Part shown: positions 1,763-8,861 of the stretch, one piece after another
Layout: each line of letters starts with the position of its first letter
Numbering within the stretch: the first letter of the stretch is position 1
Assembly (NCBI GenBank): GCA_000808095.1
Contig: CP009910.1
Location: 558,001 to 622,000, forward strand
Direction of reading: 5' to 3'
Length of the DNA stretch: 64,000 nt
Origin: Borreliella chilensis
GTDB lineage: Bacteria; Spirochaetota; Spirochaetia; Borreliales; Borreliaceae
Position numbers and translations under genes: made by a program
The notes under the pieces: generated by a model
Told to the model about the DNA's origin: nothing
The model's input: only the letters and a program-made list of their open reading frames with translations
Database searches by the model: none

Positions 1763-3745
1763 ATGAGCATTAAAATACAGCAAGAAATTTCAGATTTGAA
1801 GAAGCTGATTAGAAAGTGGGATAAGGAGTATTACGTTGATTCTTTGCCCAGTGTTGATGATTTTGTTTATGATGAGCATTTTTTAAGACTTCAAGAGTTA
1901 GAGAATAAGTATCCTGAATATAGGACCTTAGATTCTCCTACGCTTAAGCTTGGCAGTGATCTTTTGAATGACTTTAAAGAGGTTGAACATTCTGTTCCTA
2001 TATTAAGCCTTGACAAGGTTTATGATTTTGACTTGTTAAAGTCTTGGATAGATAAGATTGATTTTAATAATTCTTTCAGTATTTCTGTTGAACCTAAGAT
2101 TGATGGGTGTTCTATTGTTCTTTATTATAAAGATGGCCTTCTTGAGAAGGCTCTTACTAGGGGTAATGGAAAATTTGGTAATGACATTACTAAAAACATT
2201 AGAACCATTAGGCATGTACCTTTATTTCTTGATGAAAAGGTTGATTTAGTATTAAGGGGCGAGGTTTACATTACTAAAGAAAATTTTTTAAAAATAAATA
2301 AATTTTTGGAAAAGCCTTATGCTAATTCTAGAAATTTAGCTTCAGGAATACTTAGAAGAGTTGATAGCAGAGAGGTCGCTAATTTCCCTTTAAATGTTTT
2401 CGTTTATGATTTTTTGAATGCTGGATTGGAGTTTAAAACTAACAATTTGGCTACCGCAAGACTTAAAGAATTGGGCTTTAAGGTCAATCCTTTGATTAAA
2501 TTCTTTGATCAAAAAAATTCAATGGGAGAAGTTTTAAATTACATAGCAGATATAACAAAAAAAAGGAATTCTTTTGAGTATGAAATAGATGGCGTTGTTC
2601 TTAAGGTTAGTGATTTTGCTTTAAGAGAGAATTTAGGATATACTTCCCATCATCCTAAATGGGCAATGGCTTATAAATTTGAGGCACTCTCAGGTTTTAG
2701 CAGGGTAAAGAGTATTGTTGTTCAGGTTGGGCGCAGTGGTAAGGTTACTCCTGTTGCTAATATTGATAAAGTTTTTGTTTCAGGGGCCTATATTACTAAC
2801 GCAACGTTACACAACCAGGAGTATATAATGTCTATTGGTTTGAATGTTGGCGATGTTGTTAAAGTTTCAAGAAGAGGAGATGTAATTCCTGCGGTTGAAA
2901 TGGTGGTAAATAAATTTTCAACAGGATTTTTTAAGGTTCCTGATAATTGTCCAGCTTGTAATACGGTTTTAGTAAAAGAAGGTGCGCATTTTTTTTGTAC
3001 AAATAACAATTGTCCTTCAGTAGTGGTTGAGAGGATAAAATATTTTTGTAGTAAAAATTGTATGGATATTGAATGGTTTTCTGATAAAACCGTTTCGTTT
3101 CTTTTTGAGAAAAAATTTATTTTTTCAGAAATTGATCTTTATATATTTGATTTTTATAAACTCCTTGAATTCAAAGGGTTTAAAGCTAAAAAAGTAAATA
3201 ATTTAATAAATTCAATCGAAGCTAGCAAAAAAAAACCATTTAGCAAGTTACTTCTTAGCATGGGAATTAAAGAATTGGGAGAAAACACAATAAGGTTATT
3301 ATTCCTTAATAATTTAAATTCATTTTCAAAGCTTTTTAAGCTTTGTCAAGATAGGGATTTTGCTTTTTCAACATTGTTGAGAATTAAAGGCATAGGAGAG
3401 AGAATTGCTTTAAATATTATTGATGCTTTTAACGATTCAGTAATCCTTAATAAGTTTAAATTTTTTGAAAATTTGGGATTTGAAATGGAAGAGTATATTG
3501 TAATTAATGATGAAGATAGCTTGTTAGCTGGTAAAAAGTTTTGCATTACTGGAACTTTTAATGGTTGTTCTAGGTCTATTGTTATTGACAAGTTGAAAAG
3601 CAAAGGAGCAATTTTTAACACTTCTGTGACCAGAAGTTTAGATTTTCTTGTTGTTGGAGAAAAAGCTGGATCAAAGCTTGAAAAGGCTTTAAATTTGGAC
3701 ATAAAAATTATGTCTTTTGAAGACATTAAGAGGCACTTAGATTAA
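1763..3745 (+). CDS. ligA: NAD-dependent DNA ligase LigA
   Basis: 660 residues, full length for bacterial LigA. An N-terminal Ia domain (YDE near residue 36, SPT near 58-60) is followed by the adenylation domain with the nucleotidyl Lys at 112 in EPKIDG; then DGVVLK, an OB fold (VGRSGKVTPVA), a four-Cys zinc finger (CPAC...C...CP, about residues 396-417), helix-hairpin-helix repeats and a C-terminal BRCT domain (CITGTFNG....). It seals nicks in replication and repair using NAD. It stands alone on the plus strand between two minus-strand genes. There is no ribosome site before the ATG, and the promoter lies almost against it. Confidence 0.97.
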   Translation: MSIKIQQEISDLKKLIRKWDKEYYVDSLPSVDDFVYDEHFLRLQELENKYPEYRTLDSPTLKLGSDLLNDFKEVEHSVPILSLDKVYDFDLLKSWIDKIDFNNSFSISVEPKIDGCSIVLYYKDGLLEKALTRGNGKFGNDITKNIRTIRHVPLFLDEKVDLVLRGEVYITKENFLKINKFLEKPYANSRNLASGILRRVDSREVANFPLNVFVYDFLNAGLEFKTNNLATARLKELGFKVNPLIKFFDQKNSMGEVLNYIADITKKRNSFEYEIDGVVLKVSDFALRENLGYTSHHPKWAMAYKFEALSGFSRVKSIVVQVGRSGKVTPVANIDKVFVSGAYITNATLHNQEYIMSIGLNVGDVVKVSRRGDVIPAVEMVVNKFSTGFFKVPDNCPACNTVLVKEGAHFFCTNNNCPSVVVERIKYFCSKNCMDIEWFSDKTVSFLFEKKFIFSEIDLYIFDFYKLLEFKGFKAKKVNNLINSIEASKKKPFSKLLLSMGIKELGENTIRLLFLNNLNSFSKLFKLCQDRDFAFSTLLRIKGIGERIALNIIDAFNDSVILNKFKFFENLGFEMEEYIVINDEDSLLAGKKFCITGTFNGCSRSIVIDKLKSKGAIFNTSVTRSLDFLVVGEKAGSKLEKALNLDIKIMSFEDIKRHLD

Positions 3746-3768: not shown

Positions 3769-5253
3769 TTATTTAATTATTTTTATTTGCTTGAATTCAG
3801 GTTTTAGGTTTTTATACATAATTCCTAATTCGTGAATGTTTTTGACTTCTATTAAGTTTCTAAAAAATTCTTCTTTATTTTTTAGAGCAGGGTTAATAAA
3901 ATATTTTTCAAATTTATATTTTGAGATTATTTCATGATTTTTTAGCGCTTCATTTAAATTATTAGTTGGACCTATTTCAATATAGAATGTATTTTCTTTT
4001 TTGAAATCAAACCGATCCCCCTTTTCTTTAAATTTATAATTATTAAGGTATATATCAGGGTAGATTTGAAAATCTGCTGTTTTGATCATAGTTGTTTTTG
4101 GAGTGTTTTTAGCATTTTCTTCTAAATCTTGGTTTTCATCTTTTTCTGTAGGCTTTAAATATTCCTTTTCTAATTTGTTATCTTCTTCTAAATCATCATT
4201 TGTTTTTGTGGCACTTGGAATAAAGGTTTCTTCGGTTGAAGACTTTTGAGGAAATTCTTTTTTTTTATAATTGTTCAATTCTTTTTGAAGTTTTAAAATA
4301 GTCTCTTCATTATCCTTTATTTTATCTTCTAATTCTTTTAGCTTATGTTTATCGGTTCTTAATTTTTTTTGATTTTCTTTATTTATTGCTTCATTTGCGC
4401 TAATTTTTTCTTTTAGGGCATTTATTATTTTCCCTATTGAAGATAAGTTTTCTTCTATTTCTTCTAAGTTTTTATCTGAGGCATCTTTTTTTTTAAACTT
4501 TCTTAATTCTTTTTGCAAGTCTAAAATGGTATTTTCATTATCATTGATTCTCTCCTCAAGTTCATCGAATTTGTTTTCATTAATAGCATAATATTGGTCA
4601 TTATTGTGAAGGGTTTCTTTTAGATTGTTGATTATTTTTTCATTAGAGGGATAGCTATCCCCATTTATTTCTTCAAGCTTATCTTCATAGTCATAATTTT
4701 CTTCAAAGATCTCTTCTTCTTCTTCTTCTTCATTGATTTTTTCGTAATTTTCAACTTCTTTGGGGCGGATTTTTTTGCTAAGGAGTTTTTTAATTTCTAA
4801 TATTTCGTTTTTTAATTTATTAGTTAAAATTTCATATTTTTTTGCTTTTCTTTCTATTGATTCTATTTTTTTATTTTCATTTGTTAGAGATTTTTGGTTT
4901 TTGTTTTTTAAAAGTTTTTCTATATTTTGAATTTTATTTTCATAATTTTCAATTACAGATTTTAGATCATTTTCATCCATTCTTTTTTTAATAAGGCCTT
5001 TGTTTCTTATATTTTCTGGCAATTTTAGATCCTTGCCTTTTTTGGGATCTTTATAAGAAACTATGTTTTTACTTGAATTTTTTAATTTATTTATTTGATT
5101 ATTTTTAATTTCAGTATATTTAAACTCTTCGCTTAAGTCTTCTAAGGGAATTTCAATACTTGAGTAGCTTATTGTATTGTTATTGGCTCCAAATAATGAT
5201 ATACATGAAAGTATTATAAAATACTTAAAGCCTTGCTTTTTTGTTTTGTTCAT
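3769..5253 (-). CDS. Exported coiled-coil protein with a C-terminal SPOR-like region
   Basis: 494 residues. The N-terminus (residues 8-23, hydrophobic, then FGA-NNN) looks like a signal peptide; Cys17 in ILSC could instead be a lax spirochaetal lipobox. Residues 95-340 are strongly charged coiled coil with an EEEEEE run near 175-181, encoded by a short CTT-type repeat. About 70 residues are duplicated: KIINNLKE (206-213) matches KIINALKE (275-282), and ELEERINDNENTIL (231-244) matches ELEDKIKDNEETIL (307-320). Residues 421-493 (FYIEIGPTNNLNEALKN....FFRNLIEVKNIHELGIMYKNL) show the two half-repeats of a SPOR peptidoglycan-binding domain. I infer a periplasmic, septum- or wall-associated protein; no function is recognised. 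Confidence 0.7.
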   Translation of the reverse strand: MNKTKKQGFKYFIILSCISLFGANNNTISYSSIEIPLEDLSEEFKYTEIKNNQINKLKNSSKNIVSYKDPKKGKDLKLPENIRNKGLIKKRMDENDLKSVIENYENKIQNIEKLLKNKNQKSLTNENKKIESIERKAKKYEILTNKLKNEILEIKKLLSKKIRPKEVENYEKINEEEEEEEIFEENYDYEDKLEEINGDSYPSNEKIINNLKETLHNNDQYYAINENKFDELEERINDNENTILDLQKELRKFKKKDASDKNLEEIEENLSSIGKIINALKEKISANEAINKENQKKLRTDKHKLKELEDKIKDNEETILKLQKELNNYKKKEFPQKSSTEETFIPSATKTNDDLEEDNKLEKEYLKPTEKDENQDLEENAKNTPKTTMIKTADFQIYPDIYLNNYKFKEKGDRFDFKKENTFYIEIGPTNNLNEALKNHEIISKYKFEKYFINPALKNKEEFFRNLIEVKNIHELGIMYKNLKPEFKQIKIIK

Positions 5254-5511: not shown

Positions 5512-5539
5512 TTCAATTTTTTCTGTTTATTTGAGGTTT

Positions 5540-7408
5540 ATGAGTTTGGCAAATGTAGATGAATATGAATTTTGGGCTTTACCGGTTTGTTGTAATGTTA
5601 AAGATTCTTTTATTGAAGATTTTAGCTTTGTAGATGAACATTTAAGTTCGATTTTTAGTATCAGTTATAAAGACAATATAACTTTAAAGTTTAGAGATTT
5701 TGTTGATTCTAATGAATTTAATTTAAAGCTTTTTGATAATAAAATAAGTTTTGAAGGACAAATTCCTTTGGTTTTGTATTCAGATAATTTAGAGTATTTG
5801 TTAGAAGCAGAAAAAAGTGTTCTTTTTAATTTAAGAATTGGAGATGAAAATAATAATTATTCTTCTGGATTTGAAAAAAAAGAATCTGGGGCTTGTAATG
5901 TTTTGAATGCTTGTTATGAATTTAGTGATTATAATAGTTTTTCAGACGACTTTGTGTTAGTTAAAATATTTTTTGATTCTGAAAATTTAATTATTGATGC
6001 TAATGTAGACAATATTTCTTTTTTGAAATTTTTTATTAGTGAAAATTTTGGAGTGAATAAGGACAAAATAAAAATCAATTCTTTTGATAATTATTGTTCT
6101 AGTTCCATTTTTCCTATTTCTTTTAATGCAATTGTGCAAGGCATAGTGATTTCACAAAAAATTAATAAAAGGGTTAATGTTATTTATTACAAAAGGCATT
6201 TTGGAATTTTAGATAATTTAAACCTAACTTTTTCAGTTTCTAATTGTTTGTTGGCAGATAACAAGCTTTCAAAGATTGTTTTAGAAATTATAATAAATCG
6301 ACCTTTAAATTTTTTGTATAAGTTTTATTTTAAATTTATTAATAATATTTTTAGAAATTTGTTTTTTGATGGGTTTTTAGAAATTTTTTTTGTTGAGAAT
6401 AAAAGTGATTCTATATTTTTTTATGATAATCTTTTGGCATTTGAGACTTCTGTTTATAATTTTATTTATTCCAATTTTTATAATCTTGCTTTAGCGTTGT
6501 CCTGCGAGCCAATAGGTTATTTGCTTACTCAGATTAAAGGTGATTATAGTAAATTTTTTAAAATTTTTAAGAAATTAGACCTAAAGAATTCTTTGATGAA
6601 GAAATCTTCTGTTTTAAGTGTTAATAAGAATTATAATATTTTTGATGCTAGTCGTAAGGGAGTTGGGTTTGCTTATTTGAACTCAAATAATTATTTTTTA
6701 AGAGAAGATCAATCTGTTGTTGCTTTTTTATATAAGGATAGATTAGATATATTTTTGCCTTACAGTATTGTTGATAGCAACTTAAGCAACTATTTGAAAA
6801 ATAGTTTGGCTAAAACATTGGGGTTGGCTTATAACAGTATAAATTTTTTGATAGATGAGAATTTGCTAGATTTTACTAATTTTAGTAGTCTTCTTTTTAA
6901 AGATTCTTATGTTATTGAAAAAGCAGTTTTAAATATTAAGGATCAATTTTTTTCTTTGATAAGCACGGGTTTTGCAGATGAATATCCTGTTATGTTCGAA
7001 GAAAAAATAGCAACTGAGTATGTCAATGATTGCATGCTTGGATGTTCTGTTGAGCTTAAATTTGAATTTTATTCTCTTAAAGCTGTTTTTAGTGATGTGA
7101 GTTTTTTTGTAGAGCAAGGTAAGTTTACCAAGCTTAAATTAAATAACAAAAGAGTTCGCACAATATTTGAGTTGGCGGTTGATTATGTGTTTTGCAGTGG
7201 CAATGTAAATTGTGATATTAAAGATTTTTTAAGTTTAGAGTTTGTTGAAGATGGTGAATTTGTTTTTTCTTTTAGAAGTTTTTTTATTGTTTCTGTTTCT
7301 GCAATTCGAACTGCTTTGATTCAGATATTTGATTTTAATGTAAACCGCACGCCTCTTGATTTTGAAGAAATTCTAAATAACTGGAGTATAAAAATTGATA
7401 TTAATTAA
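5540..7408 (+). CDS. Degenerate xanthine-dehydrogenase-type large (molybdopterin) subunit homologue
   Basis: About 622 residues, no signal peptide or membrane helix, rich in Phe, Asn and Ser. Alone it is hard to place, but it precedes recognisable small and FAD subunits and shows matching blocks: DANVDNISFLKFFISENFGV, like the StQ....vA..lG block; LDIFLPYSIVDSNLSNYLKN, then LAKTLGLAYNSINFLID, like the e.GqG..T...q.aAe.LGi....V.v block; and a C-terminal SAIRTALIQIFDFNVNRTPL then DFEEIL, like the usual AiaNAi.dAtG.ri..lPltpe.il ending. The Gly-rich molybdenum-pyranopterin loops are not recognisable. I place the start at ATG 5540 (GAGG just upstream); TTG 5531 is the alternative. Family membership is inference; catalysis with a molybdenum cofactor looks unlikely. 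Confidence 0.6.
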   Translation: MSLANVDEYEFWALPVCCNVKDSFIEDFSFVDEHLSSIFSISYKDNITLKFRDFVDSNEFNLKLFDNKISFEGQIPLVLYSDNLEYLLEAEKSVLFNLRIGDENNNYSSGFEKKESGACNVLNACYEFSDYNSFSDDFVLVKIFFDSENLIIDANVDNISFLKFFISENFGVNKDKIKINSFDNYCSSSIFPISFNAIVQGIVISQKINKRVNVIYYKRHFGILDNLNLTFSVSNCLLADNKLSKIVLEIIINRPLNFLYKFYFKFINNIFRNLFFDGFLEIFFVENKSDSIFFYDNLLAFETSVYNFIYSNFYNLALALSCEPIGYLLTQIKGDYSKFFKIFKKLDLKNSLMKKSSVLSVNKNYNIFDASRKGVGFAYLNSNNYFLREDQSVVAFLYKDRLDIFLPYSIVDSNLSNYLKNSLAKTLGLAYNSINFLIDENLLDFTNFSSLLFKDSYVIEKAVLNIKDQFFSLISTGFADEYPVMFEEKIATEYVNDCMLGCSVELKFEFYSLKAVFSDVSFFVEQGKFTKLKLNNKRVRTIFELAVDYVFCSGNVNCDIKDFLSLEFVEDGEFVFSFRSFFIVSVSAIRTALIQIFDFNVNRTPLDFEEILNNWSIKIDIN

Positions 7409-7862
7409 TTTTAATCTAAATGGAGAGAATATTTCAAAAAAGATTAGCCTTTCTTTGGCAGCAAGAAGTCTTTTGGATTCAATTTATTGTTCTAAGAGCA
7501 ATAAATTAGAGTGTGTTGTTAATAATAGATTTTTTTTGATCTTATTGGATTCAAGACTTGTTTATTCTAATTTAATTCCTGCTTTTATTTTAAATGGTCG
7601 TAGCGTAGTTACTCTTGAGGGGCTTAAGAAAAAAAGTTTTTATCAGTATATGCAAAAGATTTTGTTAGAAGATGATTTTAATTTTTGTAATAATTGTTTT
7701 GAGTCGAATGTTTTGATGTTTTATTATTTTTTGGAAAGCAAAATTGTAAGCAAATCGGATATTTTAGGGTATAGAAATTCATTAAAATGTAATTGTATAG
7801 ATATTAATACTTTTTTATCTCTTTATTTAAAAGCTGAAGAATTGTATAGAAAAAATGGTTAA
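7395..7862 (+). CDS. Degenerate [2Fe-2S] small subunit of the xanthine dehydrogenase family
   Basis: 155 residues, the standard length for CoxS/XdhC-type subunits. The line-up is good: INFNLNGENI at the N-terminus, LLDSRLVYSNLIPAF then NGRSVVTLEGL (family: LLDGrlVnSClvpa...g..i.TiEGL), CNNCFESNVLMFYYFLE (family CGFCTPGmimsayallE) and KCNCIDI (family lCRCTgY). The four Cys of the C-terminal helical-bundle cluster are kept (98, 101, 132, 134), but the N-terminal plant-ferredoxin cluster keeps at most one of four (Cys40). The TTG start (7395) has GGAG 8 nt upstream and overlaps the large subunit by 14 bp, so the genes are translationally coupled. Confidence 0.72.
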   Translation: MILINFNLNGENISKKISLSLAARSLLDSIYCSKSNKLECVVNNRFFLILLDSRLVYSNLIPAFILNGRSVVTLEGLKKKSFYQYMQKILLEDDFNFCNNCFESNVLMFYYFLESKIVSKSDILGYRNSLKCNCIDINTFLSLYLKAEELYRKNG

Positions 7863-8718
7863 TGTTAAGATTTATTATCCTGAAAGTTTTAATATACTAT
7901 CTAATTTATTTGACAAGAATTTAAATAATTATATCATTTATAATGAGTTGGATTTTAAAAAAAATCCTAATTTGTTTGATAAAAAAACATCTATTGATAA
8001 TTTTTTCCTTGTTTGTAATTTTGAAAAATTCAATAGGATGTCTTTAAGGGGTAATTTTCTTGAAATGGGACCGTGTGTTACTTACAATGAAATACTTCAG
8101 ATAGGTAAGAAAAATATTCCAAGTTTGCTTTATGAATTTATTTCTAAATTGAATGATAAAATATATTTAAATAGCATCAATCTTGCAAATGGGTTTTATT
8201 ATAAGAACACTATTTTTGATATTTATCCTTTATTGTTAAGCCTTGATGCACAGATTGAGTTTAAAAATGTTTTAACCAAGAAGACCTATGTTTTTAATGC
8301 TTATAATTTGAATAGGTCTGATTATATTGCAAACCGAAGCACTATTCTTGTTACTAAGTTTAAATTTCCAATGATGAATTTGTGGAACAGAAGTTTTTAT
8401 CATAAATTATTTTTCAATACTTTGTCTTTTGATGTTTTAGAAGAGATAGACATTATCTTTATATGTATTCTTTTAAACATAAGAAGAGATGTTATAAATG
8501 ATTTTTTATTAAAAATCTTTTATGATGATAAGGTGATTATTATCAAAGATTTTCAGATTTTACTTTTAAACAAATCTTTGCCGCTTTCATTTTCTGAGAT
8601 AGAAAATTCTCTTAAAATGTTGGATAAAAATATAAGAGATTCTAAAAATTTTAACATAGGAGAGAGAAGCTTAAAGCTAATAAAGAATTTTTATTTAGAT
8701 ATATTAATGAGTTTTTAA
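7855..8718 (+). CDS. Degenerate FAD-binding medium subunit of the xanthine dehydrogenase family
   Basis: 287 residues, typical of CoxM/XdhB subunits. The best block is residues 71-132: MGPCVTYNEI (family iGA.vTh.el), then INLANG followed by DIYPLLLSLDAQIEF (family GGNLAN....Dl.PaLlaLdA.v.l), and later STILVTKFKFP (family EiLt.i.iP). The Asp-to-LDA spacing is identical to the family. The two glycine motifs that hold the FAD pyrophosphate are lost: the AGGT region reads IIYNELD, and GGN reads SIN. The gene overlaps the small subunit by 8 bp. It either binds flavin differently or has lost redox function. Family assignment is from pattern plus operon order. Confidence 0.72.
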   Translation: MVNVKIYYPESFNILSNLFDKNLNNYIIYNELDFKKNPNLFDKKTSIDNFFLVCNFEKFNRMSLRGNFLEMGPCVTYNEILQIGKKNIPSLLYEFISKLNDKIYLNSINLANGFYYKNTIFDIYPLLLSLDAQIEFKNVLTKKTYVFNAYNLNRSDYIANRSTILVTKFKFPMMNLWNRSFYHKLFFNTLSFDVLEEIDIIFICILLNIRRDVINDFLLKIFYDDKVIIIKDFQILLLNKSLPLSFSEIENSLKMLDKNIRDSKNFNIGERSLKLIKNFYLDILMSF

Positions 8719-8806
8719 TTTTTAATAGTTCAATTAAGTTTTAATTACTATCTTTAGTATGCTATATTTCTTATATAAGTGGAATATATAATTTATTTTT
8801 ATGTAT

Positions 8807-8812
8807 TATAAT
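8807..8812 (+). promoter_or_regulatory. Candidate -10 box for the pts operon
   Basis: TATAAT at 8807-8812 lies 50 bp before the ptsH start, in the 143-bp gap after the xanthine-dehydrogenase-like operon. No good -35 hexamer sits 17 bp upstream, so the promoter is only suggested. A clear ribosome site (GAGGGG at 8845-8850) follows. Confidence 0.35.
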
Positions 8813-8861
8813 GTAAAAAGTTAATCAAAAAAAATATTCATAATGAGGGGTTTCTGTACTT

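Follow-up and report, generated by a model that had tools for sequence, protein, structure and literature searches.

Does the three-gene locus between ligA and ptsHI-crr in Borrelia encode a xanthine dehydrogenase (XDH), as its published name says? We analyzed this locus in a 64,000-nucleotide stretch of the Borreliella chilensis genome (the window). Judged by gene order and published descriptions, the trio is bb0554-bb0556 (xdhACB) of B. burgdorferi, the same locus at the same place with the same description. The initial annotation called the operon hidden, which it is not. Ramsey 2017 (PMC5333916) described bb0554-bb0556 as having limited homology with subunits of CO dehydrogenase, and the transposon screen in that paper linked the genes to peroxide tolerance. 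A 2019 mutant screen (PMC6516651) linked bb0554 and bb0555 to tick survival, and the locus was named a putative xanthine dehydrogenase, xdhACB, in 2023, with reactive oxygen species (ROS), tick and mouse phenotypes (PMC10566445, citing Phelan 2023). In Treponema pallidum, TPASS_0079 and TPASS_0081 have been called xanthine dehydrogenase (PMC4403809, 2015). The available text on bb0554-bb0556 treats the products as an XDH or a CO dehydrogenase-like enzyme and makes no mention of cofactor losses or of a spirochaete family. As far as the literature examined shows, the locus is known, and its reinterpretation and the spirochaete family described here are new.

The trio consists of three overlapping plus-strand open reading frames (Table 1). 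The large-subunit frame starts with ATG at 5540 (an alternative TTG is at 5531), the small-subunit frame with TTG at 7395, and the FAD-type frame with ATG at 7855. The overlaps in the window are 14 nt (large/small) and 8 nt (small/FAD-type), in agreement with the overlapping starts noted earlier. Across the Borreliaceae, the first overlap is always 14 nt (36/36 genomes) and the second is 8 or 4 nt in 34/36. The gene order in the window is ligA (1763-3745), a coiled-coil frame on the minus strand (3769-5253), the trio, ptsH, ptsI, crr and htpG. The minus-strand frame between ligA and the trio encodes 494 residues, is rich in coiled coil and has no clear Pfam family. Antisense and intergenic ncRNAs have been published at BB_0556 and BB_0556/BB_0557 (PMC6117026); Rfam gave no match at 8500-8860 of the window, where the ncRNA is published, and Rfam and promoter scans of the trio region yielded nothing useful.

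Table 1. Features of the trio and its cofactor sites (positions in the window).
Feature	Position	Strand	Evidence
Large subunit (XDH/CoxL-like, MoCoBD fold, 622 aa; BB0554-like by gene order)	5540..7408	+	hhalign 98.0% over 566 columns; AF2 pLDDT 81.9; Foldseek to XDH/AO
Stretch NSFDNYCSSSIFP of large subunit, aligned to canonical molybdopterin loop GGGFGxK; motif absent	6077..6115	+	alignment
14-nt overlap of large- and small-subunit genes; equal length in 36/36 Borreliaceae	7395..7408	+	genome comparison
Small [2Fe-2S]-type subunit (155 aa; BB0555-like)	7395..7862	+	NCBIfam pucE 9.5e-6; hhalign 99.2%
Plant-type [2Fe-2S] ligand position; all four aligned Cys replaced by E, N, F, N	7509..7571	+	alignment
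CxxC (C98, C101), second [2Fe-2S] site; invariant in 36/36 Borreliaceae	7686..7697	+	alignment
CxC (C132, C134), second [2Fe-2S] site; invariant in 36/36 Borreliaceae	7788..7796	+	alignment
FAD-type subunit (CoxM/XdhB-like, 287 aa; BB0556-like)	7855..8718	+	Pfam FAD_binding_5 0.0076; NCBIfam xdhA 0.0017; hhalign 99.8%
FAD motif AGGT position; reads YNEL, motif absent	7939..7950	+	alignment
FAD motif TxGGN position; reads NLANG, motif absent	8179..8193	+	alignment

The three proteins are homologous, far beyond chance, to the large, [2Fe-2S] and FAD subunits of the XDH/CO dehydrogenase family. We place them there because of subunit profile matches, the structural match of the large-subunit model, and a colinear profile-profile alignment. 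Searched alone, the small subunit matched pucE (Table 1) and also the NCBIfam families glyceraldDH_gamma (8.8e-5) and XdhC (3.3e-4); the FAD-type subunit matched xdhA and, under the gathering score, FAD_binding_5; and the large subunit had no match in Pfam, NCBIfam or PDB searches. Profiles built from Borreliaceae sequences only (E<1e-3) found 55 loci with the small subunit and 58 with the FAD-type subunit, the best non-member having an E value of ~0.2. Profile-profile comparison (hhalign) of the Borreliaceae with the family outside Borrelia gave high probabilities for all three subunits (Table 1), with the large subunit colinear over 566 columns. Large subunits of the family outside Borrelia match Pfam MoCoBD_1 at 1e-22 to 1e-40; those of the 36 Borreliaceae do not match it. 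With an alignment of Borreliaceae plus 41 other spirochaete sequences, the AlphaFold2 (AF2) model of the window's large subunit had a pTM of 0.85, and Foldseek aligned it to XDH and aldehyde oxidase (AO) chains with E ~1e-24, probability 1.00 and a TM score of 0.70 over the whole chain. Modeled from Borreliaceae sequences by themselves, the same protein reached pLDDT 45.5 and pTM 0.36, too low to be of use. PDB sequence searches with Borreliaceae profiles found 4zoh_C only (0.005) for the small subunit, nothing for the FAD-type subunit, and irrelevant weak matches, such as ribosomal S17, for the large subunit. These results bear out the initial annotation, which had assigned the three frames to XDH/CO dehydrogenase subunits by order, size and motif placement and had named predicted structures and profile matches of the two smaller proteins as its checks.

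The trio belongs, by sequence, to a putatively molybdenum-free XDH-like subfamily that is spirochaete-wide and includes the syphilis bacterium. Outside the Borreliaceae, the Borreliaceae-only FAD-subunit profile matched 58 of 359 Spirochaetia genomes, one of them T. pallidum-like. Frames adjoining these matches encode the two remaining subunits, ordered as in Borrelia, and the small-subunit profile agreed. A separate profile scan of genome contigs with close alignment, which depends on two peptide patterns, returned 18 loci, all in spirochaetes; a search of viral contigs for the trio found none. Throughout the family the genes are ordered large-FeS-FAD and overlap or abut, and the Borreliaceae trio conforms; the order is large-FAD-FeS in E. 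coli XdhABC and FAD-FeS-large in CoxMSL. With an SH-aLRT of 100, a tree of the three subunits grouped the Borreliaceae with the spirochaete family and apart from the canonical enzymes. The Borreliaceae stem branch is very long (4.17), which makes the loop alignments uncertain.

The molybdenum site is lost in the whole subfamily. In canonical large subunits, GGxFG forms the loop over molybdopterin. The motif was present in 6/6 canonical large subunits and in 0/89 members of the family (0/53 outside Borrelia and 0/36 Borreliaceae). In nearly all family large subunits other residues stand in place of the aligned Arg of RG[FY]G and of GQG, and the Borreliaceae lack both. XDH paralogues served as a control: in four family-bearing spirochaete genomes they retained GGxFG, and most retained the other motifs too; because motif-intact paralogues occur in some of the same genomes, loss of the loop is specific to the family. 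A sequence EDGE at residues 570-573 was invariant in 17 aligned large subunits and lies close to the place of the catalytic Glu motif, GxGE, to which it could not be aligned with confidence. Comparison with the spirochaete family gives no support for equating the two.

The flavin and iron-sulfur sites have been lost more selectively. All four Cys of the plant-type [2Fe-2S] cluster were present in 51 of 56 other spirochaetes and in none of the Borreliaceae, which have ENFN and similar residues there. The T. pallidum-like locus L069 has none of these Cys, and L068, L118, L073 and L105 have one to three of them. The tree pairs L069 with L118 (99) and places L068 and the Borreliaceae elsewhere, so the plant-type cluster has probably disappeared on three or more occasions. 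The FAD motifs AGGT and TxGGN, or close variants, are found in most other spirochaetes, including L069; both are lost in the Borreliaceae, which read YNE(L/I) and N(L/I)ANG at these positions. The second cluster site, CxxC...CxC, had all four Cys in 36/36 Borreliaceae and in 44/56 other spirochaetes, with CC in place of CxC in most of the remaining 12. In the Borreliaceae small subunit these four are the sole conserved Cys columns, with synonymous TGT/TGC changes in their codons. In XDH relatives this site holds the cluster nearest the molybdenum subunit. The CC variant (e.g., LSSCCTD; L078, L079, L087, L089, L094, L095, L101, L107 and L119) belongs to one Treponema lineage and shifts the ligand pattern.

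The description of the Borreliaceae complex as stripped of its cofactors thus held for the molybdenum loop, the plant-type ligands and the FAD motifs, and needs two corrections: the stripping is incomplete, as the CxxC...CxC ligand set is fully retained, and loss of the molybdenum site is a trait of the whole spirochaete subfamily and is not peculiar to Borrelia. The canonical enzymes (XDH/AO/CO dehydrogenase; XdhABC, PaoABC, CoxMSL) share the three-subunit architecture and fold with the Borrelia proteins and differ in having the molybdenum loop, the plant-type cluster and the FAD motifs. The T. pallidum TP0079-TP0081 type of operon (L069) is like that of Borrelia in gene order, in the loss of the molybdenum loop and plant-type cluster, and in keeping CxxC/CxC, but unlike it in retaining the FAD motifs (GGGT and TIGGN) and in lying within a capD-degT operon. 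The most economical history appears to be loss of the molybdenum site at the base of the subfamily, repeated loss of the plant-type cluster, and loss of FAD in the Borreliaceae, an order that we infer from the alignments and the tree.

Based on these comparisons, we think it likely that the trio encodes a retained, cofactor-stripped XDH-fold complex with one Cys4 site. The complex would be heteromeric, probably made of the large, small and FAD-type subunits, and would descend from the molybdenum-free spirochaete branch of the XDH family. What selection maintains is the protein scaffold and the four-cysteine site in the small subunit. To judge from its ligands, the remaining chemistry is likely to be this one metal site, which may hold a [2Fe-2S] cluster or Zn. 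The whole may be no flavin or molybdenum redox enzyme but an assembly with a structural or redox-responsive role, which could explain the published peroxide-sensitivity and tick-survival phenotypes.

A narrower form of this explanation is that the complex is a minimal electron carrier or oxidant sensor that uses the remaining [2Fe-2S] cluster without FAD or molybdenum. We regard this sub-case as possible, with a real but minority chance of being right. Borrelia is held to need little iron, which argues against it, and no redox partner gene adjoins the trio, which is followed by ptsHI-crr. Retention of CxxC/CxC in all 36 Borreliaceae favors it, as does the presence of a NifU-like protein (33/36 Borreliaceae) and a NifS-like protein. 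The peroxide sensitivity of the mutants (PMC5333916) also favors it.

A working xanthine dehydrogenase, as published, would have to obtain its molybdenum cofactor (Moco) from the host or by an unrecognized route. The initial annotation noted that Borrelia is not known to make Moco, and MoaA, MoaC and MoeA_N were indeed absent from 36/36 Borreliaceae. Among the family-bearing genomes of other spirochaetes, 36/58 lacked MoaC, and of these, 25 were at least 95% complete, none of which (0/25) had MoeA_N. MoaC was not associated with the family (22/58 vs 98/301 genomes, Fisher p 0.45). Five motif-intact XDH-family proteins had no accompanying MoaC/MoeA_N match (L167, L168 (G324), L169 (G058), L170 (G226) and L171 (G277)); GGxFG is present in them, most have GQG/GTG or RG[FY]G-type motifs, and their Moco supply is unexplained. 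Because such genomes carry motif-intact paralogues, missing MoaC and MoeA_N is not proof that Moco is absent, and we reduced the gene absence from decisive to supporting evidence. These paralogues, the XDH fold of the large-subunit model and the invariant EDGE speak for a working enzyme, as do the name xdhACB and the ROS, tick and mouse phenotypes in PMC10566445. Against it stand the lack of a MoCoBD_1 match in the Borreliaceae, the missing Moco genes, and the loss of the molybdopterin loop, the aligned Arg, GQG, the plant-type cluster and both FAD motifs. The Borreliaceae complex would hardly be able to act as a molybdenum hydroxylase any more, because the molybdopterin loop, plant-type ligands and FAD motifs are lost and MoaA, MoaC and MoeA are missing. 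That it is a xanthine dehydrogenase or other molybdenum hydroxylase is very unlikely on these residues, and the label 'putative xanthine dehydrogenase' is probably wrong.

The complex is kept and is functional in the genetic sense. Large- and small-subunit genes were found in 36/36 Borreliaceae genomes, and the full trio was open in all of them, as expected from the intact frames noted earlier. Over 18 genomes of the window's genus, dN/dS was 0.184 for the large subunit, 0.136 for the small and 0.102 for the FAD-type, compared with 0.092 for ptsI; the Borreliaceae trio is under purifying selection. The alternative raised in the initial annotation, a slow relic of decaying genes without present function, fits the lost motifs, the accelerated stem branch, and a large-subunit dN/dS twice that of ptsI. 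We give it very little credence, as it is disfavored by the dN/dS values of 0.10-0.18, the intact trios with conserved overlaps, the four invariant Cys, and the transposon-mutant phenotypes reported in PMC5333916 and PMC6516651. Chance resemblance of AT-rich frames, to which the lack of Pfam or PDB matches to the large subunit alone might point, has next to no likelihood and is already refuted by the NCBIfam matches, family profiles, hhalign, AF2 and Foldseek.

The ancestral complex probably took part in the synthesis of amino-sugar nucleotides or worked alongside it, because capD and degT lie directly upstream in most other members of the family. A gene for a DegT/PseC-like PLP aminotransferase was directly upstream on the same strand in 46/58 family loci, and a CapD-type (Polysacc_synt_2) gene lay upstream of degT in 36/58, with several of the others being truncated contigs. 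In L069 (764-7089, plus strand) the order is capD-degT-trio with an adjoining sigma-54-type regulator, an arrangement that matches TP0077-TP0082 of T. pallidum. We found no literature on a glycan link of the family in Treponema. The capD-degT arrangement is common and not universal in the family; the Borreliaceae trio lacks it, with ligA and the coiled-coil frame upstream in the window, and a true DegT is missing from the Borreliaceae, whose only match is NifS-like. The link would thus have been lost in the Borreliaceae. We offer only tentatively a broader scenario, in which a separate molybdenum-free spirochaete XDH branch had an amino-sugar nucleotide role with CapD-DegT, shed its cofactors stepwise, and in Lyme and relapsing-fever Borrelia became an iron-poor or iron-free complex that is held by a single Cys4 metal site and newly serves to tolerate oxidants.

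The xanthine dehydrogenase label thus sits on a locus for which infection and ROS phenotypes have been published, yet the residues that this chemistry needs have been lost. Because those residues are gone, experiments on purine or urate chemistry at this locus are probably misdirected. The syphilis lineage has the same family, there with amino-sugar genes in its operon, and this raises a testable question: what role an XDH fold may have without molybdenum.
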